From a virus, in the IMG/VR virus record IMGVR_UViG_3300010148_000019, positions 1 through 48,241 of that record: 48,241 bases of DNA. One strand, given 5' to 3'. Positions 23,701 to 48,241 of this stretch are shown here, one piece after another. The first letter of the stretch is position 1. Every line of letters starts with the position of its first letter. Both the position numbers and the translations under genes were made by a program. Below the pieces are notes generated by a model that searched no databases, was not told the DNA's origin, and was given only the letters and a program-made list of their open reading frames with translations.

Positions 23701-26700
23701 GTTGCAAACGACTTTCTTCATGGTTGGTAAGTGTGAGTGCTTGTGAGCGAATACCCTTCAAGCAAAGGAATGCGGAGATGGCTCGTGTACCATCCGGTGT
23801 GTCCATCATTGTACTGGCATCACGAAGTGAATACTGTGCAGGGTCATTAGCACTACGGCTTAATTTTAACGCACGAACCAGCGGTGTACCTAATTCATCA
23901 AGTATTTTCTTCGATAGCACATGTGCTTTATTTGCCCAATATGTTGATGCTACTGCTGGTTGAAGACGGGGTAGTGTACTGTCGGCAATTGTGAAAGAAT
24001 CACCAGTGCTTTCATGCATCAGCCCACTGTGTACATAATGACCGTGGGCTTTACCCATAAGATGTGAGTTGTTGTTTGATGCACCAGTACCAGTGGTGGT
24101 GGGTGATTGAGTGATGTAAGTCACCGTTGCAGTTTGGGGGTTTTCTCCACCTGATGTTGTACTCATTACATCCTCGGATGTATTACCACCTATGTTATGC
24201 ACATACGCACTTTCGATAAATTTGGATTGTTGAGTACGACGGATAAATGGATTTTCACTTGGGAAACCATTTGCTACATCTATTTGAGTAGTAAAGTAGT
24301 GTGGCGCACCACCGTTTTGATTCATCAAGAATTTGTCAAGGTCTGTCACTCCGCTGGCAGTGACGATATGCCGACTGAATCCGATATGTGGTGTAGCGGC
24401 ACTGGATTGAACCTGCATGTGCAAATCGTGGAATGCAATGAACTCACGGTCGTGCGCTACATCGAACATCAAAACTCGTGCATGTCCTTTCTTAGCAAGG
24501 TACGGGTCGAGATAAGCAACAGTCGGTGCTTGAGATGATGATAGTCCCATTGATTCGTAGTTCAACTCAATGGTTTTGTTTACATGTTGAACAAAGTTGT
24601 TCGCAGTTTCAAGACACGAATTACCAATCAAAAAATTTTCAAGCGGAATAGAATCACGAGGGCGGTTAGTCAAAGCACCTCGCCCGCCGTTGAATCCAGT
24701 CCAAACTTGACCTTCGTTAAGCACACCACGGGACTTAGCAAACAACCCTTCGACAGCATGAGGGTTGTTCATTGTCATGTTCATCCATACAGTGTCACCG
24801 TTGCGTAAGCCACCTTGAGCATACGGGTACAACCAACTACGGTTAAGAACAGTATCGGGGTCCGTTTCCATGATTGAGCCAGCATTGATACGAAGTTTGT
24901 CACCACTGGCAATAGCGTGTGCATTACCACCAAAGGTGAGTGTAGGGGTAGTTGTACCACTACCACCCGCATTAGCACTCATTTCAAATGTAGTTGCATT
25001 GGTGATACTGGCGATAAACGCACCAGTGGCTATACCTGTACCAGTAATTGCCATCCCCTTACGCAATCTTGTAGTGTCGGGAACGGTGACCGTTCTATCG
25101 GAAGCAGTAATTGAACTGGTGAGTGTAAAAGTTTCAAGCGTGATTACTGTGTTTGTGGCGTGTCCACTACCAGCGAGAGGTGATTCACAGAATGCCACTC
25201 TTCCAATGTAATCTATTACAGTAGCATCACCAGCATCTTCACGGTATATGTCATCACCGGGCCTTAAGTTCATACCAATAGTATTTGCTTGAGGCATGAG
25301 AGTAGCAGTAGTAGGTGCTACTGAAAGTGTAGTTGCACCACCAATGTCACCTACAGCCACCGTGTAAGTCCAAATTTCACCCGCAACAGTGGGTCGGAAT
25401 GTACTTACTAAATCTTCGGAAGAAGAAGCATTGTATGGGTCTGTTGCTCCTACAATTGCATGACCGCCTTTTTTCATTCGTATTGTTTTACCAACTACAT
25501 TACTTACATCTGCATTTGAGAGATTAGCACAAAGAAATCTGTTAGGTTTTGTAAAATCAAAATTACCTGCATACAAAAGTTCAATTGGTTCATCTTGTAA
25601 AATTTCAAGACTCAATAAGGGGTCACCTACGGCAAATGTAATAACATTTGATGTAGTGCGAGTCCATTGAACATCGGGAAACAAAGAGGCATCATCAACA
25701 GTAATGAAAATCAATCCAAGTAAGGTGGAAACATCGGTAATAGTAGCAGTGGCCGTTTTTGATTGAATGCGAGGGGCGTGAGGGTTGGTGAGTGGTCCCT
25801 CTTTGAACTCAACCGCACTCACATATTGCCGCAATCCGTAATCGAGATTGCCACCTTGAGTCTGCATATTTGCATTGTCGAAGTAATAGGGCGAGCGACC
25901 TTCATAATCGGATGATGGTGTGGTCACATCCGAAGCAATAGGAACAAGTGTTTCGTTTCGGTAGCCACCAGCCACATGTATATTTCCACCTTCAACTAAG
26001 TCATTCAAGAAATTAGGTGACATAGAGCCTGTAAACCCTGTACCTACTGTAGTGCGTGGAATTTTGATATATCCGTTAGCACTTGGGTCGTTGACATAAA
26101 TTGCCCATTGATTATTTGAAAGAAAGACTCGGCGATAACGAATGACATTTTTCATGTTTCTATGCTCATTTACGGCTGTTTCAGCCGATGGGAAAATCTT
26201 CGGATGAGTGGGATAAATGTTCAAGTAATCGGTTTCAATTTTGATTTCACGAATAGTGGTCGATGAAATATGTGCATCACTGTTTGCATTATAACCGTAT
26301 GCAGAATGAGCATTGCGGTCGCTTACAGCAATATCATTTGCCCGACGACCTACAGGGGTGGGGTTCCATGAATGGGCTGTGTAGGTAGCATCAAGGTGAA
26401 TTTTCATGCTGTTATCGGGACCGGGGAAGATACCATCTTCTTCTTGAATAAAAAATTGCTTAGGAAAAAGTGGGATTTCAACCATTGCACGAGTGCTGGC
26501 ATACTGTGTACCAAGTTGATAATCGTGATTTACTGTGTCCATACTTTGGAACAATCGGTCATTGACTGTACTACCGTCTTCACAAAGATTGTCATTATTG
26601 AAATGGGGGTCGTTGTAAACATTAAATCCAACTGAATACAATCCAGCACTACCACTGATGGCACCAACAGCATTTAACCATTCATTGAAAGTATTGTATG

Positions 26701-29700
26701 CTGTACCATTAGCATCTAAAAACGACCTTTGCTCTTGGGCACCCGGTCCACCACTTGTATCAACGATGAATACAAAACCAGCACCAGTTTTTTCGCTGTA
26801 AGCGGCACTTGCGCCGTCTGCAAGATAAATACGACCCACCTTTGGGAAACAATATGTACCCCATGAAGCCATATCTGTTGACAGGTTATTGAGTGGTTGG
26901 ACCGACATATACACCCTATCAGCGGTGCTGTTTATTGAAACGGCTCGTACAGCGCAGTTGCGGCGGGTTGAACCCGGTAAGCGCATCAGTAGGCTGGGGT
27001 CATTGGTAGGTTTGGTGTTGACAGCACCCTGCCCCGGTCCACCAAGCGTGACAGTGACGACAGGAGCGTTAGGCTCAATTTCTTTGACGATGTGCGAATC
27101 GGGTGAGCCGCTACCGGTGATGTTGACATTTTGATTGGCGAGTCCTTCCGCAATACCGGTTGCTGTGATTGTGATGATTTTATCGTTGTCTTCCGGGTTC
27201 TCATCTTCCTTAATCGAACGAATGCGTGTACGGCTCATTAAGAACAACAGCGATGCAATGCTGGGTGAGTCGCCTTCGGTAAGGTTTGTACGCATCTTTG
27301 ACAGTTGATTTACTCTTGTTCTGTCCGATGGTTGTACATAAATTACCATTGAAGTTTCGTGTGTATCTTCAAGAACATTGTCAATAATGTCAAACATTTC
27401 AAAGGTATTGCTTGCATCGCTTGTGGAGCCTTCGTCAAAAACACCAGTGCCGGTGTTAGTGACAGCGGCCCCTTTGACAAATTGTATGCCTGTATCGGTG
27501 GTGTTCCTTACAGTATCACTGGATGCTGGCTCAATGCATAATTTGTGGTATGCTGAATCATGTATGCCATTGTTGTGTGATGCAGTGAGATATTGAGGGG
27601 CTGTATTACCTTGTGCCGTAGCATCGTTAGGTGGTGTGTAGTTGACAGGACATAGACTAAAATCAACTTCACTGTCAAGTTCATATCCACCAGTGTTGTC
27701 ACCAACTAAGGAGTGAGATTCTTCTAAATGAACCGACCCTGCAATTTGACCTAAGCCCAAGAACAATACTCCGCCCGGTGAGAAAAGAGTGGTATCTTTT
27801 GATGCATCAGCCAAATCTGCTTCGATAACATCCAGTACCGTAGTTGAGCCTGTAAGAACAAAATTACCACTCGGTACGGTCTTTTCAATCATCAAACAAG
27901 GTGTTGTTTTACTCATACTCGCACCAGTCAAATCAATGGCGTTGTAATGAATTTCGACATACGGTGCAAGGTTGTGGGTGCTTTGAAGAGTAGGAACTTT
28001 GAGCAGTGCGATACGACTTACGCTTTCGGGTCGCAAGTGATACAAGCGAGCATCATCATCTATGTCACCATACTCCGGTACTGGTCCTTTCATCATAAAA
28101 GGGCGATAATCAAAGTTAGTTCCACCAATAGCGATTGCTTGTTCCTTGCTCGCTGGTAGCCCATTGGTGACTACAAAATCAACGGCAGATGAATTATTAA
28201 ACTTAGCAACATCGACTTGTGTACTTTCTTCATAAAAATCGGATAGTGCGTTCATGGCAAAAAGTCCCGCTATCCCTTTTCCTGTATTTTCATACACCAT
28301 TTCAACAATATCTGCCGAACCATCCATCATTTGGTCAATAGCGAGATACGATGGTCTTGGATAACGACGCATGTATTCGTGGCCGTTGATGTGTGAGAAC
28401 TTGTGCCGCCCACTGTGACCCACTTGGTAAAGAGTGTCGAGTGTAGCGGGCCAAGTGACAGCAAACGGATTGTTTGGTGAGTTGTCTGTTGTAGCCATTT
28501 GTGTTGAATACACCAAACCATGTTGAGCAAAATCACTCTCATCAAGCACCATTTGACCTGTTTTATCAAAGATTTGGCTACCGTAGTGTGGGGGTTGATA
28601 CGGCCTACCTGTGCCATTGTCAATCAACAAATCAGCATTTACAATGACAAAGTAGTTGTCAACATTTGCAGTACGAGAATGAAGAAGACCACGCTTACCA
28701 CCAGTGCCGAGGATAAAATCAATGTGAATACTGCTTACAGTGATTACCCCTGTCGAGCCATTTATTGATTCTATTCTTGCCCTTTCCGGCGGAGATGCAT
28801 TTGGTTTTTCCGTATTCCGGTTAATTGCACCGGGGTTGATGAGAAGATTATAAGGAGTATGTGGTATAGCAAGGGTGGCTTCTGTGCCGGGGGTGGTGAC
28901 AAAATCAGTCACCTTGTAGTTCCCCATGCTGTATGGTGTGGCTGTGAATGTAGTAGTGACACTGGTGCTGTCATACGGCTTACCGGTTAAGCGAGCGATA
29001 AGGGCTTGGGCATCAGCGGCGGCTACTGTGATTGTAGTTGTCGTACCATCAGCGGCTACAGTAAACGCATTGAACTCGTATGACTCACTCACAATATCAA
29101 GTGGTTCTTCAAAGCGATACATACCAGTTGTTGTATCACCGTTGACAGGCACAGTGCTATCAATCATTCCCGAATCAAAATCACTGTTAAAGTGAAGTGC
29201 TTCAATAGCACCACGGAACTCTCCACCTTTTCCACCAACATACACATGCGCTGTTGAATTAACAATACTGGAATCTTTTTCAATAATCTCGCTTGCTACC
29301 CTATTACCATTGACATACAATGATACAGAACGCTGTGAAACAGCGGCAACAACATGATACAAACCTCGATGCTTGAAGTTAAGATTGGTAGCATCGTTAT
29401 GCAATGCGCTACTACCCTCTAAAAAGCGGTTGTAAGTGTCGTGTATGCCTCCAACTTCTTGTGGGGGGTACACTACCCCCTCCCACCGGGTTGAGGTCAA
29501 TTTAGCGGTGCTTAGGACTACTTTTTGCGTACCGCTTGGAGTTTGAATGAAAACAGTAAATTTGGCTGGACCGGGCGTATCGACTGTACCAAACTCAAGT
29601 GTAAACTGCTCATCACGATGAGCAATCACGCCACCGCAATCGGGAACAACCCAAGCCTCAATAGCAAATTGGTCATCGACTAAAGAATTGATAACAGTAA

Positions 29701-29839
29701 TTTCATCACTACCACTGCCGGTTTTACCGAGAATATCTCGTGCTGGACCGACGCTTGTGAAATTACCTTGAGGTAGCAGAATAGAATCACTAACGCCATC
29801 GAAAAAGAAAGCGTTGCTTGTTCTGCCAATTCCAACCAT
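11759..29839 (-). CDS. Giant 6026-residue tail/adhesion protein with N-terminal LamG-like domain
   Basis: One unbroken frame of 6026 codons starts at an ATG preceded by GAGGTGA. Residues about 10-230 form a LamG/concanavalin-like lectin domain: FFFDGVSDSILLP, AIEAWVVPD, GLYHVVAAVSQRSVSLYVNG and AHVYVGGKGGEFRGAIEALHF are successive strands of the jelly-roll. Four copies of a 65-80 residue beta module (GMxVTGTGIP...ITNATTFELS) are scattered through it, three of them starting DATC. Further beta-rich Ser/Thr/Gly/Asn/His-rich stretches fill the rest. No membrane anchor, protease or hydrolase was recognised. Located after tape measure and distal tail genes, it most likely forms a central or side fibre binding the host cell surface. 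Residue count, 18 kb length and absence of stops rule out a pseudogene. Confidence 0.8.
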   Translation of the reverse strand: MVGIGRTSNAFFFDGVSDSILLPQGNFTSVGPARDILGKTGSGSDEITVINSLVDDQFAIEAWVVPDCGGVIAHRDEQFTLEFGTVDTPGPAKFTVFIQTPSGTQKVVLSTAKLTSTRWEGVVYPPQEVGGIHDTYNRFLEGSSALHNDATNLNFKHRGLYHVVAAVSQRSVSLYVNGNRVASEIIEKDSSIVNSTAHVYVGGKGGEFRGAIEALHFNSDFDSGMIDSTVPVNGDTTTGMYRFEEPLDIVSESYEFNAFTVAADGTTTTITVAAADAQALIARLTGKPYDSTSVTTTFTATPYSMGNYKVTDFVTTPGTEATLAIPHTPYNLLINPGAINRNTEKPNASPPERARIESINGSTGVITVSSIHIDFILGTGGKRGLLHSRTANVDNYFVIVNADLLIDNGTGRPYQPPHYGSQIFDKTGQMVLDESDFAQHGLVYSTQMATTDNSPNNPFAVTWPATLDTLYQVGHSGRHKFSHINGHEYMRRYPRPSYLAIDQMMDGSADIVEMVYENTGKGIAGLFAMNALSDFYEESTQVDVAKFNNSSAVDFVVTNGLPASKEQAIAIGGTNFDYRPFMMKGPVPEYGDIDDDARLYHLRPESVSRIALLKVPTLQSTHNLAPYVEIHYNAIDLTGASMSKTTPCLMIEKTVPSGNFVLTGSTTVLDVIEADLADASKDTTLFSPGGVLFLGLGQIAGSVHLEESHSLVGDNTGGYELDSEVDFSLCPVNYTPPNDATAQGNTAPQYLTASHNNGIHDSAYHKLCIEPASSDTVRNTTDTGIQFVKGAAVTNTGTGVFDEGSTSDASNTFEMFDIIDNVLEDTHETSMVIYVQPSDRTRVNQLSKMRTNLTEGDSPSIASLLFLMSRTRIRSIKEDENPEDNDKIITITATGIAEGLANQNVNITGSGSPDSHIVKEIEPNAPVVTVTLGGPGQGAVNTKPTNDPSLLMRLPGSTRRNCAVRAVSINSTADRVYMSVQPLNNLSTDMASWGTYCFPKVGRIYLADGASAAYSEKTGAGFVFIVDTSGGPGAQEQRSFLDANGTAYNTFNEWLNAVGAISGSAGLYSVGFNVYNDPHFNNDNLCEDGSTVNDRLFQSMDTVNHDYQLGTQYASTRAMVEIPLFPKQFFIQEEDGIFPGPDNSMKIHLDATYTAHSWNPTPVGRRANDIAVSDRNAHSAYGYNANSDAHISSTTIREIKIETDYLNIYPTHPKIFPSAETAVNEHRNMKNVIRYRRVFLSNNQWAIYVNDPSANGYIKIPRTTVGTGFTGSMSPNFLNDLVEGGNIHVAGGYRNETLVPIASDVTTPSSDYEGRSPYYFDNANMQTQGGNLDYGLRQYVSAVEFKEGPLTNPHAPRIQSKTATATITDVSTLLGLIFITVDDASLFPDVQWTRTTSNVITFAVGDPLLSLEILQDEPIELLYAGNFDFTKPNRFLCANLSNADVSNVVGKTIRMKKGGHAIVGATDPYNASSSEDLVSTFRPTVAGEIWTYTVAVGDIGGATTLSVAPTTATLMPQANTIGMNLRPGDDIYREDAGDATVIDYIGRVAFCESPLAGSGHATNTVITLETFTLTSSITASDRTVTVPDTTRLRKGMAITGTGIATGAFIASITNATTFEMSANAGGSGTTTPTLTFGGNAHAIASGDKLRINAGSIMETDPDTVLNRSWLYPYAQGGLRNGDTVWMNMTMNNPHAVEGLFAKSRGVLNEGQVWTGFNGGRGALTNRPRDSIPLENFLIGNSCLETANNFVQHVNKTIELNYESMGLSSSQAPTVAYLDPYLAKKGHARVLMFDVAHDREFIAFHDLHMQVQSSAATPHIGFSRHIVTASGVTDLDKFLMNQNGGAPHYFTTQIDVANGFPSENPFIRRTQQSKFIESAYVHNIGGNTSEDVMSTTSGGENPQTATVTYITQSPTTTGTGASNNNSHLMGKAHGHYVHSGLMHESTGDSFTIADSTLPRLQPAVASTYWANKAHVLSKKILDELGTPLVRALKLSRSANDPAQYSLRDASTMMDTPDGTRAISAFLCLKGIRSQALTLTNHEESRLQHLEHWTNMDFVRRLTIDCGEVGIKEGVTDIEAATREIVRLINQGGAKNAFTGTASSLSPLATADAISSPREKLFNRTLEHTLDIGSAFDPAPWWFADEAFDRRNRGSHMGYLRAHIGRVVEDLDGNEGFSIVIHSTVPGASGRNFCTWLDNSKGQSQYKPQFLVGHGGRFRNFWCQPDETTGENMHPAPMPINKHGRPFAPITTLREYTVQEEADDVFSSNGDFSVRQNYKSNPQKRSISAFNGSGMIANTINDESFESQSPSKTLVEGLRTGTQAIGRINFGGMVASGIPGFAPDAGVWGLGERGNTKFDIRYSEATTTGGTAPTAIADYSDHVTASQIENVGDSQLYGFQFEDHLGNSYGVRFIYRKMGETFTNDNTALPPTLDNEICVYFDDRDVGQGGLTIGNHMIGFGDVTGRIDTTGDLTEASYRGNRWRGVPAPSVGIDASVTLTTSKMTVVLHPPFNAGTVTNSQGDSITGDDVVGNHPDVLGYLGFPKTNGLFQINDTFTGTSAKGIVGHTFSYTHRTEENNDGTHVFYGVTGDSFTSSHSVANTAVGTAITDSGSGGTAVSQPGTNSMRVLLSPRINWTTLVTDELMAAVTAAAINLENPNTPNGVSFDCRDMYAADGRTFREWGVAADAIKIRAHNPIRRAKPLAKMFEATLHKDWGIQAAHLEYGEYTKLDYNDGDWTVTTTDTINKPYSDAELDNHRRMDVGYLPYTVIQIRSKGRGYHANTATPVLVDSSNRPVSTTDWRKNLKGESYTSITGDHILPSLNNPILKFDSYTDTDNVFTTHLNAISHAMIPAGQESSSLSSLAKEPSFGEEMILHYSTTDGLAKGIVESINGSDSTTKLTYQDGYGNGLWTTAFNGNVADNFVLTRFAQSDAPGFEVESIGGFRSHGSVDSEPIIYFRGARDSIDHSIPLYFGGGFSGVTLDINDGTQNDYSPFYTHPYSNGPTGTAGIQNANEISGSFAMVDCNALLAFFPGTALLNQHRGSINSPVSNKNSILSPDLRGGNLDADFALLNAAAAGDVRARYNAGIVRQQPVPLVLRFAHPTARYHDSQPIVDATCDYNNDATITMDSTAQLVVGMAVTGTGIPDGATVASITNATTFELSAATTGGSVSNGTLTFNYIENKTTYLIYGPGQAFPFTEDDNSNAAVEPHPGYVVTTGNTWSKVPHSKYLPNEITNSDNLYGPPDSAYQTARNRYHWRTTLNWSPPQGIPNVGYLQQRPEHGSHYGEVFTNPTSGKITSDNKGDYWKAHPYKHSATAYYGIAMSADMTFHMDGGFHPGGSWLDNQVSFNPPNPNSNYRYALEAWNQVNATAYRVSGVMGKTILEGANSETALNFDTDYIVVDGTRCQNGEELATIIGQAINENPGKGALKAMGGTFLPSMGNASRQDRYGWVEMTFEAYTNAASTGPTVNADTLIGNLYAGTLGTAINSRNYIQASISGATQEELEQLPMSGWVRTPTGGRDHTVGGGHSDPSYHAGPTWGCYHSREVFSDSGTFKVRFYLAPNRIGGLPLLEDRMTWHNKCESATLTYPSPGHVIDPNPPSVPEPIEYPLPSQLYVWSKAGVHRFNNENETPRSHMTQAHFGGLVDAIDRTRPVGAVGWAGERYSYLNSLKVDTSAFTDATCDYNNDPTIAMDSTAKLKVGMLVSGTGIPTGAYVRSITSSTGFELSVSTTGGSVTNGTLTFTTNLYAAGKGAWHPKMGFTPYGSSASCMSTLGHLPSSYPMYNSPESSPRVNGQEASNTSYDVALTTPYTWNIGLAGNASWYTNYDFTDVESTKDIFSAKPAHMREIDADTNFVLNPKLHHQQGVFSRAMLVISNESELALVAKTDRDGIKSTGDWLSVVSKTRAGVAAATAITFAGTTRWDERFHDAERYIAPANAGPNVEALIATGTATPTADVPNGAYVLHTALTGDQDTNLFNAEPCFAETGDLFFDTDISPGSVQLEVATDVLRNITKELETGSTDAEIDNYDYTNDDFWLGDTNGYKLSQRTPAKNFSVEHVVWKRMDGGNLSLPASNARGLGAVPFVTRVAGGNAYTTGEKLYGNNRFTFESTNSAMFPIIQAQELSHPQLAARHPDLLRNILEIPNEEIQFESITVIDDTGQEHKIEGGSPFGTIIRTFTQLSDRGAQGLAPAVSGSGISPNLKIRLPDPDSIPGNLVIRSGFDRLQAYQTESMGTGGMMTKSTVEHLFNTDSVSPNLGPTYSDHNWEHLKQGTDSPESTMSGWQSSTGNAPLETAYELHDRTLYFHVTKMGNTNTHKHPVIYSHADGVVNHELTGVSFSGTTLTVNTTVNSAVYDSTFGNKERVGERRFLRLYNPTTDEGGVASFTGISGSTFTGCVGDETFNKLVLSSITALKVVPSYYIPAGSTRFYGSRRIRDHAEVSGNSPDMAHTHYVNYSVTAEEAMTGYSIYNKPQLTPAPIPRMGHHFVNATMAMLPGHWAHPAYQGLYDKHRACRSATLQSDEYDLIGLLDMGQDSPGTTITNQLPTYDPLLVFGSLTATPSGPSDIHGGGFSLMFETKLRNDGYGVLASEGQAGVVNAAGGHTVVLEAAGTYTLKEHFPDPAEVGAYQIIIQPNMHSSQFIGYHANGGATATPDGSVNELTSQQVALVVGIREPDSATGAYALVLANATMADVRGCEVFINELMIDHDPDHGSHFTNIPPLMLYNPLGVQSTESPAFVRRSLPYTTGMFADASPGYTINIPWWSIVHKVGPDDADGSRFNHLSLHRLDNYYEFLRANAGSVAAQITLAGYPSNYPDLYSEILENISLTPVCTFVSLTSSTVIKVDDARGFPKQPYYGMLLEYTDATGTRRTHSYTERSGYDSSNMNKPLQFTIAANSDFTSNLTAGTKIRLTRAYDFRPANTILNEIETSVLAHSIDNLITGTRDTNSLHMADAFLCLWHPNLGRPHTFYSDASRTWLNPLTDRAINQKPLNSMPEHFETVHYHDATYYASMGPFALRMKTAMPPTEAQSTFYTATSASVSSTTVTATGTIMAGWPTSGTNTVYVNSGSEEEIFTYTGGGAGGTTLTGCVNVKGTPLTTMASGNHSLRYYKTADLAADGSHTRQVVSHTGSTITTNGGEPIADEAYIFVDGRMYQVDGSVTEGDTTIVVFQALPQEIAVGSVIYTGADGTPQTAQTIDTTIGTGLMQGGQSDSSDTATKSMLNHFWPSGSRGGPLVSRLDGYAYVSSSWEYPRDYGFDGPIWSDADDDGSYTVSSGISKSSYDGISNPTRPRPFGYRFGLRQPYNKPQWSMYGLRALRETAITATNASVAYKHGPFVQEETQTWTYAGGNGSSNPTFPNTYTGIMERQTNFSAMLGVDKPEWQVRYSDGVRYTRPFGCPVRTLRNSATVLRDWWGDGNGKGLDSIESAAKYYLVDWWGNTRGEDIRRFPVRSFGIRPSWDAGDAYEYDRRNNRTPYQRIHNNGKHLVNLKGLTNAADSALSISATVPRFGGRLNNTNSNDSTTLVDVFMPSNAQRVGDMGNGRGIRYPTQFNEDVLTALSEPIHTTGLVLSHHTAEPILNDGFIRARNDTLQADEVPRGISSRLEIAEDGLLKPEAVVSDRMENIVGDSPHKDAVSRSSPRIGLDTENLQGVDTNQIIINTEAHSLHTDRNVGQRVVLQGGMQTGSQTIGNYDLTALNFGGQPQGGAVRMSHTSNFNPLGGTYLAETRNFLSPIDDSNWGAFTDATCDTNHTSGLSDGSSTSVRHVTMTSTAKLVVGMTVSGLGMHASATIAAINNATCFTLSHDTTATNTNTTLSFGPPTAMGSNPYVTSVFTSAGKRANAVDKTITYMMRPVRLMDKQHIEMFRSNLNLHSSAPQYGSNYFGATAGGKYGLFVYSVDNGRATGGGTYMRSTSPDTNPPYAPAFLMDISASDTVPMSKGPKIIGTGDSGFDSSKIDNEVTRVIISENTLEHYRADASRRRTSVESDESVVRKDFTVQPRYSQSLHPKGHKGDVDYNSTDHTGDGA
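12381..12622 (-). repeat. Beta module copy 4 in the giant protein
   Basis: This is the C-terminal-most copy. It begins FTDATCDTNHTSG, has an inserted Ser-rich loop, then VTMTSTAKLVVGMTVSGLG, AINNATCFTLS and TTLSFGPP. It is more divergent than copies 2 and 3 and has an extra Cys in the NATCF segment. Confidence 0.6.
18612..18812 (-). repeat. Beta module copy 3 in the giant protein
   Basis: The copy reads FTDATCDYNNDPTIAMDS, TAKLKVGMLVSGTGIPTG, SITSSTGFELSVSTTGG and GTLTF. It is the closest relative of copy 2, with shared DATCDYNND and TTGGSVxNGTLTF signatures, and DNA similarity is still visible. Confidence 0.65.
20308..20503 (-). repeat. Beta module copy 2 in the giant protein
   Basis: The copy reads VDATCDYNNDATITMDS, TAQLVVGMAVTGTGIPDG, SITNATTFELSAATTGG and GTLTFNY. 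The GM-x-VTGTGIP and ITNATTFELS elements are typical of repeats in large phage structural proteins. Confidence 0.65.
24930..25125 (-). repeat. Beta module copy 1 in the giant protein
   Basis: The N-terminal-most copy reads LTSSITASDRTVTVPDTT, RLRKGMAITGTGIATG, SITNATTFEMSANAGG and TLTFGG. It lacks the DATCDYNND lead seen in the other copies. Confidence 0.6.
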
Positions 29840-40201: not shown

Positions 40202-41302
40202 TCACTTAAGGTCACGAATTGAAGCGTGTCCTCCGAAGAAAGTCGTCCATAGTTCTCCCATAGTTCGGTACATTCCTTCTTGTCCAAGACGGTTGATTGC
40301 GAATGGGTCACCAGTTTCAATACCACTCTCGAAGTATTGGGTCGGGATAGCGGTTGAGAAGTACAAGTAGTCCGTATCGAGGAAGTACATGCGGCTCAAG
40401 GTGTCTGCTTGAACATCCTTAGATGGGATGATTGGGACACCGTTGTAGGTAGCGACGATGAATCCGGCTTCGATACCGGGAACACCCTTCACACCGTTGT
40501 AGGTAGGAGTGATTCGCTTCTCTTCCATGAATCGCTGTTGCGACTGTAGGAGTTGTTGAAGGCGCATCAAAGTGTCATATCCTGTAAGGATGACCTTTGG
40601 ATTGCCACCACGGGTCCATGTCTTTTGGAAGATGGTGTCCAAGTGGTCGAGGGAGAGAGTTCGGTCAGTACCGGAGTTCTCATCGTGTTCTGCAAGGGAC
40701 CAAGAGTTTGCACTTCGGTCGATTGAGTAAATGTCTTCGTTAGCGGAAGAAGATGCACCAGTGGTGATTCGGTCAAGTGACTCGAAATCGTTGCCAGCGG
40801 CGGTAGCCTTGTCAACAAGAAGCATCTTGTTGATATGCTCGGCGTGGTGCTTACCCATTTCTTCCTTGAGGATTGAGCGAATGTCGCCCAGTCCGTCATC
40901 CTTGTCAGCAAGGAACATTGCAGTTTCGCTCATGTCGAAGGTGTGAACCACAGTCTTCGGCTTTGCGGCAATGTGTTGGAAGATAGGCTTGGTTGTGTCC
41001 GGTAGGGTTGCGTTTTCTGCAACACCGCCGCCAACAGTGAACGAAGGTCGTGCAGTGATGACTCGCCATCCACTGCGTTCCCACGGTCGCTTTGGTAGGA
41101 TTGAAAATGCGTTGAACTCTTGGTTCAATTGGGACCAAACTTTGCGACCATAAATCGCTTGGTAAGTACCAGCAGTTGAGGACAGCATAGGGCTGTCAGC
41201 CTTGAGCAACTCACTACCGGAGTAGGAATAGCCCATTGCGTTCCCTGCGCCGTAGTAGTATCGTTCCATGTCAGTCACGCTTCGGATATAATCTCTTGCC
41301 AT
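40202..41302 (-). CDS. Major capsid protein, HK97 fold
   Basis: This 366-residue protein sits directly after a prohead protease-scaffold gene and has the length and pattern of HK97-type capsid proteins. It has an N-terminal helical arm (RDYIRSVTDMERYYYG), a P-domain long helix (RSILKEEMGKHHAEHINKML), then NPKVILTGYDTLMRLQQLL and FIVATYNGVPIIPSKDV of the A-domain. The C-terminus is YRTMGELWTTFFGGHASIRD. I prefer ATG at 41302, since GGAGATGA lies 5 nt upstream, over a TTG or ATG within that leader. The protein forms the icosahedral shell. Recognition is by gene order and fold-like pattern, not by direct comparison. Confidence 0.85.
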   Translation of the reverse strand: MARDYIRSVTDMERYYYGAGNAMGYSYSGSELLKADSPMLSSTAGTYQAIYGRKVWSQLNQEFNAFSILPKRPWERSGWRVITARPSFTVGGGVAENATLPDTTKPIFQHIAAKPKTVVHTFDMSETAMFLADKDDGLGDIRSILKEEMGKHHAEHINKMLLVDKATAAGNDFESLDRITTGASSSANEDIYSIDRSANSWSLAEHDENSGTDRTLSLDHLDTIFQKTWTRGGNPKVILTGYDTLMRLQQLLQSQQRFMEEKRITPTYNGVKGVPGIEAGFIVATYNGVPIIPSKDVQADTLSRMYFLDTDYLYFSTAIPTQYFESGIETGDPFAINRLGQEGMYRTMGELWTTFFGGHASIRDLK

Positions 41303-41327
41303 ATTTTTCATCTCCATTATTTTTTTG
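41300..41327 (-). promoter_or_regulatory. Leader of the capsid gene (copy 1 of a shared leader)
   Basis: The minus strand reads AAAAAAATAATGGAGATGA and then AAAAT before the ATG. It matches the leader of the decoration gene over about 19 nt with no mismatch, ending GGAGATGA. The ATG inside the leader (41317) is in frame and could be misread as the start. Confidence 0.6.
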
Positions 41328-41331
41328 TTTT

Positions 41332-42219
41332 TCAAGCCCCTCGTGTGACCGAAGCGGCGAGATTGTGTACTTCATCCCAAGACATGTTGCCCAAGTCTTG
41401 TGTGGATGGGACTTCGACATTCGTTGTAGAAGCCGACTTTTGAATTGATGTGCCGGAAATGGCGATGTTATCAATTCGCTCACTTAGAGCGTTGATGGAC
41501 TTCATCACTTCATTGATTGGGGCACGAGCATCGAACTCGGCTTTTTCAGCCTCATGCTTTGCGATTGCCATTTCTTTGCTCAATCGGTCAGCAAATTGAG
41601 ATTCAAGGTCGCCACGGAATCCTTGTTCCAATGCGGCGGCTTTGTACACTTCGTATGCGGCTTCAATATCACTTGAAGAAACATTGTTGTGGTTAAGGTA
41701 GCCCTTGCTCATCGAAACAGGTCCGAGTGCGCCGGATGGGGTCTTACCACCGGTTGAGGTGATAGCGTTGATTGCACCAGTTGATGGGCTTCCGTTCTCT
41801 TGTCCTCGGCCACGGACTTGACCACCGAAGTAGTCAGCACCGTCAACAGCGTCGGGGTTGTCGAAGCCACCAAGTTGTGCCTTCTCCAAGTTGTCGAAAT
41901 GTGTTCGTGCTTGCATAGTGTCAACACCAGCAGATTTGAGGGTGTCTTCCATCCAGTTTAGGTATTCAGCGGTGATTACATCGCTGTATTCACTCTTTGC
42001 GTACATCTTATCATCTTTCATATCTTCATCATCCTTTTTGTCTTCGTCTTTGTCAGCGAATGGGTTTTTGGATTCTTTCTTTTCCTCTTTGGGTTCGGAA
42101 TCATCCTTTTTGTCGTTCATGTGTTCTTTGAGGCCGGGAGGCATTTCGCCTTTTTCCATTGCGTCAAGTCGTGCTTCAAGTCTGTTCATAACATTGTTTA
42201 AGTCATTTTCTGTGGTCAT
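41332..42219 (-). CDS. Nested scaffold protein produced from an internal start
   Basis: An in-frame ATG at 42219 opens a 295-residue product (TTENDLNNVMNRLEARLDAM) containing only the scaffold part. It begins just after the last protease segment. AAAGGAGG lies 8 nt upstream, the most canonical ribosome binding site in the virion operon. This resembles lambda Nu3, which is nested in gene C. The scaffold would be made in excess of the protease fusion. The N-terminal coiled-coil-like helix and the acidic-basic middle (DKKDDSEPKEEKKESK) fit a scaffold. Not proven, but the signal is strong. Confidence 0.7.
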   Translation of the reverse strand: MTTENDLNNVMNRLEARLDAMEKGEMPPGLKEHMNDKKDDSEPKEEKKESKNPFADKDEDKKDDEDMKDDKMYAKSEYSDVITAEYLNWMEDTLKSAGVDTMQARTHFDNLEKAQLGGFDNPDAVDGADYFGGQVRGRGQENGSPSTGAINAITSTGGKTPSGALGPVSMSKGYLNHNNVSSSDIEAAYEVYKAAALEQGFRGDLESQFADRLSKEMAIAKHEAEKAEFDARAPINEVMKSINALSERIDNIAISGTSIQKSASTTNVEVPSTQDLGNMSWDEVHNLAASVTRGA

Positions 42220-42735
42220 GTTGGTGTCCTCCTTTAGAATGCGAAATTGTGCTTCGGGGTTAATTCCCTTTTCACAAATCGTAATCTCATGTAGTTCCAT
42301 CTTACTAATTTCTTGGTAATCTCCGTGTTCTCCATCGGACTTTCGCACTCGCTTGAATGCCTGTCCTCCAATGGAAAATCCTTGCAGATTACCCTTACGG
42401 ATTTCTGCGGCCACTTCACGAGCCTTTTCAATGTCGTTGCGAAGTGAAACAACCACAAACATACCAGTATCATCAACTTCGGATTTCCACATCCTTCCGT
42501 TTGAGTCAACATAGGAGTCAATAACTTCTCCCACTTGAATGTTAGAGTGAGCAAGTTGTACATTGCGGAACTTGTCACTCTTCATGAATCCGCCAAAAGC
42601 ATCCTTTAGTGCTGAACGGGTAATGAGGTCGCCTTGCTTGTCCACCAGTTCAACTGATGCGTAGCCAGCGATAACCATATCGGAACTGCCCTTGATGAGA
42701 GCAATGCCGGAGGTAGGTCGCTTAAGGGACAACAT
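41332..42735 (-). CDS. Prohead protease-scaffold fusion protein
   Basis: From ATG 42735 this is 467 residues. The N-terminal 165 residues have the herpes/HK97-type S78 serine protease pattern: AGYASVELVDKQGDLI, the catalytic His H63 in LAHSNIQVGE, the Ser S121 in LQGFSIGGQ, and MELHEITICEKGINPEAQF near 146-163. The remaining 300 residues are a charged, Lys/Asp-rich scaffold region with helices near the end (ISDAYEVYKAAAL-like segment, EVMKSINALSERIDN). GGAGGG precedes 42735 by 2 nt. ATG 42756 and 42750 are alternatives. The protease trims the scaffold and capsid inner parts during head maturation. Confidence 0.85.
   Translation of the reverse strand: MLSLKRPTSGIALIKGSSDMVIAGYASVELVDKQGDLITRSALKDAFGGFMKSDKFRNVQLAHSNIQVGEVIDSYVDSNGRMWKSEVDDTGMFVVVSLRNDIEKAREVAAEIRKGNLQGFSIGGQAFKRVRKSDGEHGDYQEISKMELHEITICEKGINPEAQFRILKEDTNMTTENDLNNVMNRLEARLDAMEKGEMPPGLKEHMNDKKDDSEPKEEKKESKNPFADKDEDKKDDEDMKDDKMYAKSEYSDVITAEYLNWMEDTLKSAGVDTMQARTHFDNLEKAQLGGFDNPDAVDGADYFGGQVRGRGQENGSPSTGAINAITSTGGKTPSGALGPVSMSKGYLNHNNVSSSDIEAAYEVYKAAALEQGFRGDLESQFADRLSKEMAIAKHEAEKAEFDARAPINEVMKSINALSERIDNIAISGTSIQKSASTTNVEVPSTQDLGNMSWDEVHNLAASVTRGA
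42228..42235 (-). promoter_or_regulatory. Internal Shine-Dalgarno for the nested scaffold
   Basis: AAAGGAGG on the minus strand lies inside the protease-scaffold frame (codons for LKED), 8 nt before the in-frame ATG at 42219. Spacing and match are ideal. Confidence 0.7.
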
Positions 42736-42756
42736 TACCCTCCGATTCATTGTCAT

Positions 42757-42766
42757 GGTATATAGA
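42757..42766 (-). promoter_or_regulatory. TATA-like element before the protease-capsid genes
   Basis: The 40-nt gap after the large upstream gene contains TTCTATATAC on the minus strand. Its centre is about 27 nt before the ATG at 42735, matching archaeal TATA-to-start distance for a leaderless transcript. It may give the protease, scaffold and capsid genes their own promoter in the late operon. No clear BRE purine stretch is visible. Confidence 0.4.
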
Positions 42767-42775
42767 ATGATACTA

Positions 42776-45700
42776 TTACATTGAAAGAGTTGGAGTATCA
42801 TTTTCATCGTCATAAACGATGGACTCGTCTTCATCGGTCTTCATTTCAATGTGTTTTATTGGCTTTTTCTTTTTTTCTGCGGAATCGGGTTTTATTTCCT
42901 CTTCATCCGGCCTTTTCTTGCCATCATAATCCGGTAAGTTGCTTTCTTCGGTTAATTTTGTAGGACCGCTTGGTGATTCTATAGGTGTAGCCATATCAAT
43001 TCCTAAGCCTTTTGGTCCAGTCCAAGTCAATTTTTCTTTAGCAAGTTGGTCTAAAGCCCTACTGATTACTTCAAGTGCTTTCTTTGTTGAAGGTTTAAGC
43101 AAACGATTGTCGTCTTTTTCATCCAACACCCCTGCCGATTGCTCATCTTGTCTTTTACGACTCGGTACATCTTTTTCATCCATTTCCAACTTCATAAGAT
43201 GACCTTCAATCATCAATGGAGCAATGGTATGCCAATATGGATGAAGACTTTCTGCTAATGTGATTGAATAGTTTGACTTTCTCAAATCACCCAAAGCGGA
43301 AGAAGGTGTGTGTAGATACCAACTTTCTCCAATCCTTTCAACTTGATATACCACAGTGTCGATATTTTTCAAAATTACTTGAATGGTATTGTTGTGGTAT
43401 TCTAAATCGTGTGGTATGAGTATAGGTGAAAATGACTTTGTGAGTAAGTCGAGTGATTCTGTGCTGGCCGCACCTTCGCCTTCACCTTCACTTTCTATTT
43501 GTCCCACTTGTACATTGTACACATCTCGACTTTTTCTTCGCTTCTTAGAAACACCAGTAATAGTCGCTCGAACAATATCGCCAACTTTGAATGCCTTTTG
43601 TTGATTGTGTGCTGTTCCTACATCCATGTAAAATTTGTTTTTATGTGTCACAGCCCGGTTGCCCAATGATTCACCATCAAGAATTGGACCAGCACCAAGT
43701 TGGTATGAGAATGGACCATTACCCTTACGGTTAAGGATAATGAAATTGAAGTCACGAGTTTTACGCAGTAATAACCACTTTGGATGACGACGCTCTCCTT
43801 TCATATATGTGGATTTGTTGTCACGCAGAAGTACAACTTTATGTTCATTCTGTAAAATTTTAACAGCATCTTCAAGTCCTTCTTCATCAGTCATTTTAGT
43901 GTCATGCGGGCCGGGAATAATGACATTTTCATGGCTGTCAAACTGCCCTCTTAGCACTTTCATGCGTTCATGCATCAACATTTCACTCACATTGGTATCA
44001 TCATAATTGATAATGTCAATGATGTTCAAATCTTCTTCACCTACAATACCATCAATAACAAAGTTATTGTCATTTAGTTCTGCAAGGCTTTCTTTGAAGG
44101 CTTTTTTCAATCCTACTTTACGGCCATTCTCGTCGTAAGTGGTAATTTCATTGTCCTTTTGTACGATAATAACACGCTTACCATCGTACCATTTACTCAC
44201 AACCCAAGAACCACTGAACCCTCTCAAGTGTTCAAGGTCGCTTAAATCAAAGATACGATGCATGGGTCGTACAGGTGGAACCCATTCAGCATCACTACTC
44301 TTTGTTAAAAGAACATCCGGGTTCAAAAGAGAAGTAATATATTCTCCCATCTCACCCAAAGCAATACGGTCTTCTGCTGTTTCGTAAGTTAATGGATTCA
44401 TTGCTAAAGCCGGTGATGTGGCATTTTGTACTGGTATGCTTTCTAAACCTTGAAGCACTTGACTACCTACTTCATTTCCATGTAAACCAGTAATTGCATC
44501 TTGCCATGTATTTTGAAACAACTTTGGTTCAGTAAAAGTTCCAACTATAGGTTCACCATCACTTGAAAAATCAATTCCAAATGTTGATTGTTGAGGATTA
44601 GCCACCGAATGTACTACACCGGCTCCGGTGTGTGTTGGTATGATACCATAGGTATCGGGGTTTATTCCACCTACAGGTACAGGTTCTTCATTAAAACCAA
44701 CAGACAGTGTGGTTTTTTCTTGAGGTGTTATGTTATCAATGTTAATTTGATTTTGATTCAAGGCGACAATACTATCAAGTCGGTTTTTTGAAGCACGAGT
44801 CTTGTATTTTTTCTCCCCCGAACCAACACCAAAGCGATTGTGAATGTCAATTTTCTTACCGCCAGCATCAAAGAACGATAAACCAGCAGGTGTCATAAGC
44901 GAATCATCGGCTACGGTGCGTACAACATTGCTTGTAATGCTATGAATTGGGTGTTGCTTCCATTTTTCGTGTTTTGGTTGAGAGTTTTCCATTGCAATGT
45001 GGAAGCCTTCATTTACACTATCTTGCAAAAATTCATCATCACCAGCAAGATGATGCAAAAAGAAATCATCATCAAATTTACCGCTTTCCATAAGTTGGCC
45101 CACGGTACTCACATGCAAGGGTTGGTTTGTATTGTTAGATTCGTCAATTATTCGTTGAACATGTGAAGCCATGCGGTTTCTTTGTTCTGTAGTTTTTGGA
45201 GTAAGACCAAGACCTTCTAAAACTTCATCGGTGTTCATAGTACCATCAACGGTAAAAATTTCGTCACCTTGTAGATGTTCGGTTATTTTTGGATGTACAC
45301 CCTTTTGTCGTTGGGGTACTTTTTCAGTTGTATTACCAAAACGGTATGCTTGAGTTTTGATACCGTGTACATCATGCGGTACTATACCCAACATTCTTTC
45401 AGCCTCAAACATCAGTCGATTGTGATTTGCAAGGAACTGTTGAGGGTCTGTTCTTGCTAATTCTTCACTAAAGTGATTTGGGTCATGTTCCAATACACGG
45501 GGTAGTAAAAATTGTGCGGCTTGAAATACAGACTCACGGCTTGCTTTGAGTAAGTTATTGAAAACTTTAGCATCTGCTTCAACAGGATTGGTTTTACCAA
45601 GTGCCTTCTTTGCGGCTTTACCTTGTAGTTGATTAAGTTCAACTGTGAGTTCTTGTATTTCATTCATAATGCGCTTTGCCCCTTCGGGACTAAACTCTCC

Positions 45701-48241
45701 TTGTGCCGCAGGGTCATAGAGTGTTGATTGAAGTTGTTCAATTTCTGTACGAATATCTTCTTCTCTTTGAACAGAAGGGTACATACCACCGATTGATAAC
45801 GCTCTATGAATAGTGTGAGCATCAAATGGAAGTAGATTACCTTCTTTATCTTGAGTTTTAATTTTACTTTTACCCCTCAAACTTCCTTTTTTGTTTGCCT
45901 CTAACTTTTCTTGTGCCAGTTCATAACGGTGGTTTGTCAGCCATTTATGCAAACCTTCAATGTCGCCAGTGTTGAGTGCTACATCTTGTTGAGCAAGAGC
46001 ATCCTTAAGTTGTTGAAATTCTATGTTATTTTCATCGTCATCAATATCCCCATGAAGGTGATTAAAAACTTCGGTTGCTGAATTGTTGTTCAATTTTGCT
46101 AATGCAGTTAAAATCCTCATATTTTTGGCATCATCGGCGTTTCTAATGTACCGCTTGGTATGTGCAAACGATGGTTGTGTTTGCCCCATTCCTTGAAAAT
46201 CTATGAAATCGTCATGGTCAGCACCATAAGTGACAGGTATTTTTCCATCTTTTAATGCCTTGAGTTGTTCCATTGAAGTTTTGTTGGGTGCATGGGGTGA
46301 ATTACTTCGACCGAGCATAGTTTTGAGATAATGTAGTTTTCTTTTCTTTGCTAATATAGGCGTATCACCGCTATGTGATGAATATGCTTGTTCGGGATGA
46401 GTAGTTTTCATAGCGTTAGATGTAATGGATGGATGGAAATACCGTGTTTTAAATTTCTTTCTTTCTGCACTGTTCATGTTCCTTATTGCATATTCTGTTT
46501 GAGGTGAAAGCGTTGTTTTGTGAAGAGTCCAGTTGTGTTTTTCACCCGCTAATGTTCTTGTAAATACATTGGCTGGTGAAAATATGTTTTCCAACAAAGT
46601 GCGTTTATCGCCTTTATCAAACTTTTTTGTGACTGGGTTCCAAGTACCAACAGGATTTGCTTTTCCAGTACCAAAATGCAACCCTAATGACATATTTTCC
46701 GGGTTTACATTTAATGGTTCATACTGTTTTGAACCTGTTATCGCATTGGTATGCGGTATAGTTTCAAACATTGAAGAAAACTCCGGCATAGTATCGTCTT
46801 CCTTTATGCTTGAAGTTTGTACTGGCTTTTGACCTTCACCAGTAAAGGGGTTAAAAGGCTCATCAGCATCTATGGAAGCAGGTAATAGTTCATCGAGCGT
46901 CAATTGCATTCCGGGCGATAAACTGTGAATTATTTCGTTGTAAGCAGAATGAGTCATACCTGCTCCACCACCTACATCAAAACCTTGACTCCAAAATTTA
47001 GCCGGTCCTACGGTGAAATTACCATTACCACCAAGTTGCCAGTGTTTGGGTACATCTTCATCGGGATGAGGGCCATGTGGGGATTGAAGGAAAGAAAGGT
47101 GTTCCCTCATTTCCTTTCCTCTTGATGCGATATTACCGCTTAATTTTGCTTCTTCTTCCATATTTTCTATGTCTTCTAATGGTATAATAGGACCATCCAT
47201 GTTTCCGTAAATAGGGTGCTTTAACAGTGGTTTACGGGTTTTAGGGTCATAACCGGCAAGGAAAAGAATATCTTCCATTGACATAAATGCTTCATGTGGA
47301 CCTTGCATGATAGTTTTCTTTTTTGGTCGATGGTTTCTTGATGATGCCCATAGACCTTTTACTCCATCTTTTGTTTCAAGGGGGTAAGATTCCGCCATGT
47401 CATTTTTGTCAAGATTCAACTTTGGTAAGAAACTGAATGGTTTACCTACCCACTCACCGTTTTGGTCTTCTTCGATACCATGAGCATCATGCAACGCTTC
47501 AATGATATAATCAGCAATAGAACCAGTTGCTTCTTTTTTATCATCCAACAGTTGGTATGTATGAGCGGCTTCACCAAAGGCATTTTGCAAAAACCTGTTT
47601 TCACCTTGACTATAATCTTCCATACTTTCCATACGATGATATGCATTAGCACCTCTTTGCTCATCACCTCGTGTAGCCCAATTTAACTCCGGTGTACGAC
47701 GAATTAAGTTATTCCAAGCAATGCGAGCAGAAGGTATTGTTTCACCGTTGGGTAATTTTAGAAGAGGGCTTTTATCAAGACCACCTTCTTCATGTATTCG
47801 ACGCATAACTGCTGTACGCTCAACAGGGTTTAGCCATTCAAGACCATACATGTACCCCTCATGACCAAGTGCCGATGGGTGTTCATCACCATTTTCATCA
47901 ACAACATAATCGTCACTTACCCATTGCTTGGCTCTTGCTTCAAAATGAGCAACTCGCAAGCGATTCTCATTTTCTTCTGCCGAACGACCTTCCGAAAGAT
48001 TTGCCTCATTCATTTTGATAGCATCTATGTTATTTCGTTTCCATCGTTGATAATCTCGTTGATACAAGTCATCTTGATGAGAAATATTGCTACCATTTAC
48101 TCGGATTGGTCCTAATAGTGTTTTTTTATTGTGACCAAAAATAAGTGGACTTTTGACCTTTTCAAGTTCATCGTGTAGTAAACCTTCCATTCGTGCTTCT
48201 TCTTTTGAGTGTCCGTTGAAAATGTGACTTCTAAACTTTTC
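42776..48241 (-). CDS. Very large virion-operon protein with a degenerate DNA ligase-like domain (5' partial)
   Basis: The frame is open to the window edge: 1821 codons are visible, 17 of them upstream of the first ATG (48190), with no stop, so the N-terminus is likely missing. Residue numbers here count from 48190. About 1310-1570 resembles an ATP-dependent ligase nucleotidyltransferase plus OB fold: K1333-W-Y-D-G-K-R (motif I), FVIDGIV (motif III, 1377-1383), KVVLLRD (motif IV), WLLLRK (motif V), then a strand-rich KVGDIVRATITGV. The Lys expected two residues before D1336 is W1334 (a Lys lies at -3), and the Glu of DGE and of EGxVxK are replaced. Other parts are charged, with a coiled coil around 815-870. 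The gene lies directly before the protease and probably after the portal outside the window. Confidence 0.6.
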   Translation of the reverse strand, partial: EKFRSHIFNGHSKEEARMEGLLHDELEKVKSPLIFGHNKKTLLGPIRVNGSNISHQDDLYQRDYQRWKRNNIDAIKMNEANLSEGRSAEENENRLRVAHFEARAKQWVSDDYVVDENGDEHPSALGHEGYMYGLEWLNPVERTAVMRRIHEEGGLDKSPLLKLPNGETIPSARIAWNNLIRRTPELNWATRGDEQRGANAYHRMESMEDYSQGENRFLQNAFGEAAHTYQLLDDKKEATGSIADYIIEALHDAHGIEEDQNGEWVGKPFSFLPKLNLDKNDMAESYPLETKDGVKGLWASSRNHRPKKKTIMQGPHEAFMSMEDILFLAGYDPKTRKPLLKHPIYGNMDGPIIPLEDIENMEEEAKLSGNIASRGKEMREHLSFLQSPHGPHPDEDVPKHWQLGGNGNFTVGPAKFWSQGFDVGGGAGMTHSAYNEIIHSLSPGMQLTLDELLPASIDADEPFNPFTGEGQKPVQTSSIKEDDTMPEFSSMFETIPHTNAITGSKQYEPLNVNPENMSLGLHFGTGKANPVGTWNPVTKKFDKGDKRTLLENIFSPANVFTRTLAGEKHNWTLHKTTLSPQTEYAIRNMNSAERKKFKTRYFHPSITSNAMKTTHPEQAYSSHSGDTPILAKKRKLHYLKTMLGRSNSPHAPNKTSMEQLKALKDGKIPVTYGADHDDFIDFQGMGQTQPSFAHTKRYIRNADDAKNMRILTALAKLNNNSATEVFNHLHGDIDDDENNIEFQQLKDALAQQDVALNTGDIEGLHKWLTNHRYELAQEKLEANKKGSLRGKSKIKTQDKEGNLLPFDAHTIHRALSIGGMYPSVQREEDIRTEIEQLQSTLYDPAAQGEFSPEGAKRIMNEIQELTVELNQLQGKAAKKALGKTNPVEADAKVFNNLLKASRESVFQAAQFLLPRVLEHDPNHFSEELARTDPQQFLANHNRLMFEAERMLGIVPHDVHGIKTQAYRFGNTTEKVPQRQKGVHPKITEHLQGDEIFTVDGTMNTDEVLEGLGLTPKTTEQRNRMASHVQRIIDESNNTNQPLHVSTVGQLMESGKFDDDFFLHHLAGDDEFLQDSVNEGFHIAMENSQPKHEKWKQHPIHSITSNVVRTVADDSLMTPAGLSFFDAGGKKIDIHNRFGVGSGEKKYKTRASKNRLDSIVALNQNQINIDNITPQEKTTLSVGFNEEPVPVGGINPDTYGIIPTHTGAGVVHSVANPQQSTFGIDFSSDGEPIVGTFTEPKLFQNTWQDAITGLHGNEVGSQVLQGLESIPVQNATSPALAMNPLTYETAEDRIALGEMGEYITSLLNPDVLLTKSSDAEWVPPVRPMHRIFDLSDLEHLRGFSGSWVVSKWYDGKRVIIVQKDNEITTYDENGRKVGLKKAFKESLAELNDNNFVIDGIVGEEDLNIIDIINYDDTNVSEMLMHERMKVLRGQFDSHENVIIPGPHDTKMTDEEGLEDAVKILQNEHKVVLLRDNKSTYMKGERRHPKWLLLRKTRDFNFIILNRKGNGPFSYQLGAGPILDGESLGNRAVTHKNKFYMDVGTAHNQQKAFKVGDIVRATITGVSKKRRKSRDVYNVQVGQIESEGEGEGAASTESLDLLTKSFSPILIPHDLEYHNNTIQVILKNIDTVVYQVERIGESWYLHTPSSALGDLRKSNYSITLAESLHPYWHTIAPLMIEGHLMKLEMDEKDVPSRKRQDEQSAGVLDEKDDNRLLKPSTKKALEVISRALDQLAKEKLTWTGPKGLGIDMATPIESPSGPTKLTEESNLPDYDGKKRPDEEEIKPDSAEKKKKPIKHIEMKTDEDESIVYDDENDTPTLSM

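Follow-up and report, generated by a model that had tools for sequence, protein, structure and literature searches.

The window analysed here, which is the whole 48,241-bp virus record IMGVR_UViG_3300010148_000019, encodes a giant protein of the head-gene module in which the domain at 43451-44395 is, judged by its sequence and predicted fold, a DNA-ligase core whose catalytic residues are gone. In our alignments this catalytic loss is a trait of the whole dead family, 146 distinct sequences, and profile and tree comparisons identify the dead domain as orthologous, at the same locus, to a second ligase of the virion module, which a sister lineage has kept intact. With about even confidence we propose that the protein is a pseudoenzyme, a once-active second ligase of the head module that would have been inactivated once, in place, and would now act as a non-covalent DNA-holding module of the head, with no sealing of DNA. 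The virion genes concerned are as follows.

42776-48241, minus strand: open reading frame of the giant head-module protein, at least 1821 residues, its 5' end cut by the record end; relatives sit between portal and protease.
42776-43051, minus strand: conserved C-terminal tail of the giant, whose start (42995-43051) reads K...G..GLGI and then SP.GPT..PD.D in the alignment of giants.
41332-42834, minus strand: prohead protease (Peptidase_S78, domain match) with a long charged C-terminal extension.
40202-41335, minus strand: major capsid protein (SU10_MCP; 38% to HVTV-1, Druskaviridae), by domain and sequence match.

The earlier note had described the order of ligase motifs in a protein of at least 1821 residues beside the prohead protease, and this description holds: the reading frame is real, motifs I to V can be located in it and DNA-ligase profiles match. 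Complete reading frames of relatives have a median length of 1,933 residues (5-95% range 1,857-2,292; 278 loci, measured stop to stop and including some loci from the same contig). The nearest complete relative of the window protein, the giant of locus L003, has 1,978 residues counted from its first Met, and the window giant is therefore short of roughly the first 160 residues. Giants of the dead lineage span about 1,700-2,600 residues, compared with about 840 for the intact virion-module ligase proteins. The true start of the prohead protease probably lies inside the listed frame. The conserved C-terminal tail of the giant (GLGI....SP.GPT..PD.D) is possibly a head-targeting or cleavage signal. 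Over one third of the window is occupied by another frame, of 6026 residues, at 11759-29839 on the minus strand, the strand it shares with the virion genes.

Wherever the flanks are visible, the order TerL, HNH gene, portal, ligase, protease and capsid is the same in both lineages. Both portal and protease flank 94 of the 146 dead sequences, while 44 have the protease only, 2 the portal only and 6 neither in view; the corresponding counts for the 63 intact sequences are 51, 10, 0 and 2, and no sequence in either set contradicts the order. The dead family accordingly occupies the position between portal and prohead protease by which a virion-module ligase is recognised, the portal side of the window itself being cut off. 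Between terminase and portal both lineages carry a 438-residue gene whose C-terminal part is HNH-like (PHROG match 2.9e-9; L003:1190-2503; L066:1335-2654).

The pseudo-ligase region was delimited as follows.

43451-44395, minus strand: whole pseudo-ligase region, 315 residues modelled, residues 1-34 at low confidence; from profiles, AlphaFold2 model and fold search.
43760-44290, minus strand: nucleotidyltransferase (NTase) domain, domain residues about 36-212; from AlphaFold2 secondary structure, most VIA matches ending at residues 213-215.
43487-43759, minus strand: OB-fold domain, domain residues about 213-303; from the AlphaFold2 model and the whole-length match to 2cfm.

The domain is thus wider than the interval first proposed, 44000-44210, which holds motifs I to IIIa. 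In profile searches the window domain matched the NCBIfam DNA ligase PRK09632 (E=4.8e-7), archaeal DNA ligase 4eq5 among PDB profiles (3.9e-7) and Pfam DNA_ligase_A_M (PF01068) at 2e-4, below Pfam's cut-off; at E<=0.1, PRK09632 matched 45 of 50 family members and PF01068 42 of 50 (best 8.2e-9). The AlphaFold2 model, built on an alignment of 50 diverse family members, has a pLDDT of 84.6 with 188 of 315 residues at 90 or above, compared with a pLDDT of 50 when a 20-sequence alignment was used. The best 50 matches of this model in the PDB were all DNA ligases, both with Foldseek (best 6wbo, E 1e-13) and with VIA-align. Superposition on the Pyrococcus furiosus ligase 2cfm gave a Z of 21.3 and an rmsd of 3.5 over 266 residues, and therefore the NTase and OB fold, the two domains expected of an ATP-dependent DNA ligase, are both present in the predicted model, as the suggestion of a dead NTase with its OB fold had anticipated. 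The likeness to archaeal DNA ligases (2cfm, and T. sibiricus 4eq5 with a Z of 19.8) extends over the whole confident model; identity to them, however, is 17-18%, and the catalytic lysines and Glu are changed in the dead domain. A further difference from archaeal ligases is that neither of two giants scanned over their full length matched DNA_ligase_A_N. No Pfam match to this domain was found in any of three virion-module proteins scanned whole (the window giant, the L003 giant and the intact virion ligase L454), and one was present in one replicative viral ligase. The OB fold was not recognised in one clade of the dead family (L269, L277, L288, L303, L313 and L354). Searches with tblastn for named phage relatives returned none with the window domain, L330 or L269 as query, and with L271 gave weak matches (E 0.3-0.4) to Xanthomonas phage lysis genes.

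Within the domain the motifs read as follows.

44249-44269, minus strand: RPMHRIF signature (family alignment); R-I-F is common to the intact virion ligase and the His is new (Tyr in the intact form).
44174-44209, minus strand: motif I, SWVVSKWYDGKR, with Trp (44189-44191) at the catalytic Lys position; translation, HMMER and family alignment.
44039-44062, minus strand: motif III, FVIDGIVG, with Ile at the Glu position and about 25 residues absent between III and IIIa; translation and family alignment.
44000-44026, minus strand: motif IIIa, NIIDIINYD, retained; translation and family alignment.
43820-43843, minus strand: motif IV, HKVVLLRD, with Arg at the Lys position; translation and family alignment.
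43775-43807, minus strand: YMKGERRHPKW, where conservation within the family is highest; family alignment and portal-picked loci.
43760-43780, minus strand: motif V, KWLLLRK, with both catalytic Lys positions changed; translation and family alignment.

In the reading of motif I, Trp stands two residues before the Asp and the nearest Lys is shifted by one. HMMER aligns this Trp with the catalytic Lys and needs no gap to do so (EIKYDGAR / SKWYDGKR), although these local alignments are weak (-0.4 and 6.7 bits), and alignment with the intact virion ligases gives the same register. The comparison of motif I in homologues that had been suggested extends the finding to the whole dead family, in which the Lys position is occupied by W (91), Y (34), F (10), I (6), L (3) or M (2) and by Lys in 0 of 146. 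The Glu of motif III is likewise absent (0/146; I, V, T, M or L instead), and the spelling DGIV in place of DGEI was correct. At the Lys position of motif IV there is Arg in 142 sequences, Lys in 3 and Cys in 1, in agreement with the proposed exchange of Lys for Arg; the accompanying claim that motif IV has lost its Glu needs amending, however, as this position is variable in the dead family (Glu in 18/146) and not simply replaced by Lys. Both lysines of motif V are missing from all 146 sequences. The spacing between motifs III and IIIa is 12 (145 sequences) or 13 (1) residues in the dead family, compared with 36-37 in the intact one. Of the residues by which an ATP-dependent DNA ligase is defined, the dead family therefore lacks those of motifs I, III and V, and the Lys of motif IV in all but 3 sequences.

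It could be argued that the protein is still a working ligase, as its published annotation would have it, with the Lys one position earlier (KWYDG, Lys 68) as the nucleophile. The window protein has this Lys, as do 79 of the 146 dead sequences. It is, however, missing in the other 67, positions 64-73 of motif I are without any Lys in 52, and motifs III, IV and V are changed as well. The shifted Lys was rejected as a nucleophile because it is not conserved, and we give the idea of a working ligase almost no credence.

It should be emphasized how these sequences were gathered. Relatives were collected with domain peptides, with a motif IV-V DNA pattern (loci being taken among the matches listed) and with the portal protein, in a search that made no use of the domain; of 317 contigs matching the dead motif IV-V profile, a part was read. 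The 146 dead sequences, which include that of the window, and the 63 intact ones are distinct over the core, and sequences under 250 residues (7 of 139 in an earlier set) were left out of the count. The stretch Y-M-x-G-E-x-R-H-P-K-W was first seen in loci chosen by the DNA pattern and was retested on portal-picked loci. The dead domain was present in 40 of 80 such loci; all 40 kept RHPKW, with Tyr 197 replaced by Cys in one, and none had the motif I Lys. In the remaining 40 the large frame leaves the contig end (20) or the contig ends within 2.1 kb of the portal (20). Six portal-picked loci had weak protease matches (E 6e-5 to 9e-4) in short frames beside the portal, which were not counted as proteases.

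The intact sister lineage was reached through L454, which was found in a family-profile scan (query A4) of bacterial and archaeal genomes; the same scan with query A1 gave no match, and the second match of the A4 scan, L455 (Nocardioides), was discarded as it did not match the family profile. L454 (NZMJ01000101.1), a 36% G+C contig in a Maricaulis MAG, has portal, protease and capsid genes of the kind described here and probably represents a virus that was misbinned. Its portal-protease gap holds an 848-residue protein with motif I QEKYDGIR, motif III LDAE, motif IV EGVVIK and motif V PKWIKFKK. When viral contigs were scanned with this protein, 152 relatives emerged, of which 80 were kept; this led to the intact set (L454, L458-L537). 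In 63 of 63 intact sequences motif I has its Lys, motif III its Glu, motif IV both its Glu and its Lys, and motif V both lysines, a count that is biased for motif I and not for motifs III-V because the sequences were partly chosen by their motif I peptide among six patterns. Intact and dead forms share locus, gene order, homology over the NTase, the OB fold and the region that follows, and the M-x-R-I-F, G-F-x-G and P-K-W signatures. The intact form differs in its catalytic residues, in a III-IIIa interval that is about 25 residues longer and in being a short protein.

The earlier note had considered a domesticated duplicate plausible. In the sense of a copy of the virus's own replicative ligase, this origin is not borne out: hhalign of the intact virion ligase against the giants gave P=100 and E=6e-39 over 361 columns, whereas the giants aligned with the replicative ligase of the intact lineage at P=95 and E=1.7e-8, and the dead domain is thus orthologous to the intact virion ligase. 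In an unrooted tree of 60 sequences dead and intact virion ligases fell together (100/100), with 11 replicative and 4 other phage ligases on the opposite side. Because the dead virion ligases form one group in this tree (99/97), a single inactivation would be the simplest account. A tree of 39 capsid proteins places the intact lineage in one clade (100/100); against a single event, the dead lineage there falls weakly on one side of a branch (51/88).

The two lineages also differ in their complement of ligases. A second, separate ligase of 509-526 residues is present in 11 of 14 long intact-lineage records (L460, L472, L477, L494, L509 and others), which had been picked for the virion ligase. 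In 32 long dead-lineage records, picked for the dead domain and possibly fragments, PF01068 matched the giant frame alone in 30 and nothing in 2; the search for an intact ligase elsewhere in the genome, which the earlier note had advised, thus gave no other ATP-dependent ligase match. NAD ligase was found in 0 of 14 and RNA ligase in 0 of 16 dead-lineage records. On these three scans the possibility of a hidden intact ligase in the dead lineage was rejected, with the proviso that the records may be incomplete.

The inactive domain has not been left to drift; we conclude from substitution patterns that it is under strong constraint and is the most conserved part of the giant. A comparison of 16 giants, drawn from several clades, showed 67 sites with at least 90% conservation; just 6 of these precede residue 1481 of 1978, and the other 61 fall within the domain, the stretch that follows it or the C-terminal tail. 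Estimates of dN/dS were 0.02-0.08 in the dead domain (7 pairs) compared with 0.12-0.25 in the part before it (6 pairs); ten pairs were tried, of which one failed and the others without a value were not computable, and the values are rough because synonymous sites are near saturation. The first suspicion, of a dead ligase co-opted in a head-module protein, is supported to the extent that such co-option is apparent in this magrovirus-like virus.

Under the proposal that we favour, the ancestral virus would have had an active second ATP-dependent DNA ligase in its head-gene module, and the intact virion-module form would still seal DNA. In the dead lineage this ligase would have been inactivated once, in place, inside what is now a protein of about 1,700-2,600 residues; gene order suggests that the giant belongs to the head or the head interior, where the domain may act as a chemically inert ligase clamp on viral DNA, either packaged or incoming. 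The motif IIIa Asp, Arg 144, Tyr-x-x-Gly and the Pro-Lys-Trp near motif V are kept in dead and intact forms, and three positions are newly basic in the dead form (Lys/Arg 146, Arg 149 and Lys/Arg 199, in domain numbering), whereas site 203, Arg in the dead and Lys in the intact form, is basic in both. A DNA-holding clamp is considered most likely because non-catalytic core residues are retained and basic residues have been fixed at 146, 149 and 199; the putative clamp surface would combine these three with the retained ligase surface. Several observations weigh against it, however. The dead NTase has a negative net charge (median -5, compared with +1 in the intact form), which does not favour DNA binding; one clade has no recognisable OB fold, and therefore not every member has the full ligase clamp; a protein-protein contact would explain the conservation, taken alone, equally well; and the presence of the giant in the virion is deduced from gene order only.

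The same observations bear on the main rival, which we regard as possible and clearly less probable, that the dead core is purely structural and docks on portal, protease or capsid protein during head assembly with no contact to DNA. The constant position between portal and protease, the negative charge of the dead NTase and the dispensability of the OB fold in one clade are all consistent with docking. A bare scaffold, however, would need neither the non-catalytic core residues kept in both lineages nor the newly fixed basic residues.

An unlikely alternative is that the old nucleotide pocket has been rebuilt, so that the residue at the Lys position and the invariant His46, Arg149, Arg203 and His204 would form a putative new binding or catalytic site, as in snurportin, where a dead capping/ligase fold has been turned into an RNA-cap-binding module. 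Ten sites, including 46, 67, 191, 203 and 204, are at least 90% fixed within either lineage and differ between the two, and the m3G-cap-binding domain of snurportin-1 (PF21974) gave a weak profile match at E<=0.1 in 18 of 50 family members (best 5.7e-6). The matches to snurportin-1 PDB sequences, however, were not significant (E 0.15 and 1.1). Snurportin-1 serves eukaryotic nuclear import, and an m3G cap is not known from archaea. Taking the clamp and the rebuilt pocket together, we hold with somewhat less than even confidence that tailed archaeal viruses evolved a head-associated ligase distinct from the replicative one, and that in one branch it was killed once and rebuilt as a new part of the head with its own invariant site (HRIF ... 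RD..STYM+GExRHPKW), serving either as a clamp on the DNA end or DNA path or as a new catalytic or ligand site.

Finally, the giant might enter the host together with the DNA, and the dead domain might act inside the cell, for instance by sitting on nicks or on partners of the host ligase. Among named viruses the Druskaviridae have the closest capsid protein, and in the corresponding stretch ahead of their protease they carry large proteins annotated with a zeta toxin domain. A profile built from 7 giants, however, had no match at E<=10 among Druskaviridae and vir519 frames around the same place, and we consider action in the host very improbable.

Which viruses are concerned can be judged from gene content. 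Magrovirales would be recognised by archaeal-type replication and host genes, a major capsid protein related to that of Druskaviridae and a genome of about 90-118 kb. The best named match of the window capsid protein is HVTV-1 (Druskaviridae), and a family B polymerase (PolB) is present in 11 of 14 related records. The window itself also encodes, on the plus strand, an archaeal thermosome-like chaperonin subunit at 6026-7528 (NCBIfam thermosome_alpha E 5e-127, below cut-off, and thermosome_beta above cut-off), an ERCC4/Hef/Xpf-type nuclease at 3286-3984 and a PD-(D/E)XK nuclease with a weak Cas4 match at 581-1612. This chaperonin, nuclease, PolB and capsid protein fit magroviruses of Poseidoniales as they have been described (PMC10160649, PMC5332604, PMC8651126). 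On this gene content we infer that the dead lineage is magrovirus-like. No MCM scored over cut-off in 16 dead-lineage and 14 intact-lineage records, which counts against the magrovirus name or does not help it. Aoguangviridae have been described with a 92-kb genome of 31.5% G+C, PolB in N- and C-terminal parts, and an MCM (ICTV profile, PMC10768690). The intact-lineage records reach 96.5 kb, with a median G+C of 0.346 and two PolB matches in 12 of 14, and this lineage is probably Aoguangviridae.

The Apasviridae profile names an ATP-dependent DNA ligase among the replication and repair proteins (PMC12999244). Because a separate ligase was found in 11 of 14 intact-lineage records and 0 of 32 dead-lineage ones, it is very probable that the 'ATP-dependent DNA ligase' published next to the protease in group A magroviruses is the dead protein described here; the ligase of group A magroviruses and Apasviridae is described as an enzyme of replication and repair, which the dead sequence, as we read it, cannot be. 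No earlier description of such a pseudo-ligase was found in the literature searched, which was covered in part. New here is the intact ligase at the same portal - X - protease locus in related viruses. In two related virus lineages nature has placed the same enzyme at one gene position, once intact and once dead, and the step from enzyme to what is probably a structural part is thus open to direct study. This also raises the question of why tailed viruses, whose hosts are probably marine archaea, retain a second ligase within the head-gene module. Finally, this study suggests that the DNA ligase attributed to group A magroviruses as their own is an annotation error; if this is true, the host would seal their DNA.
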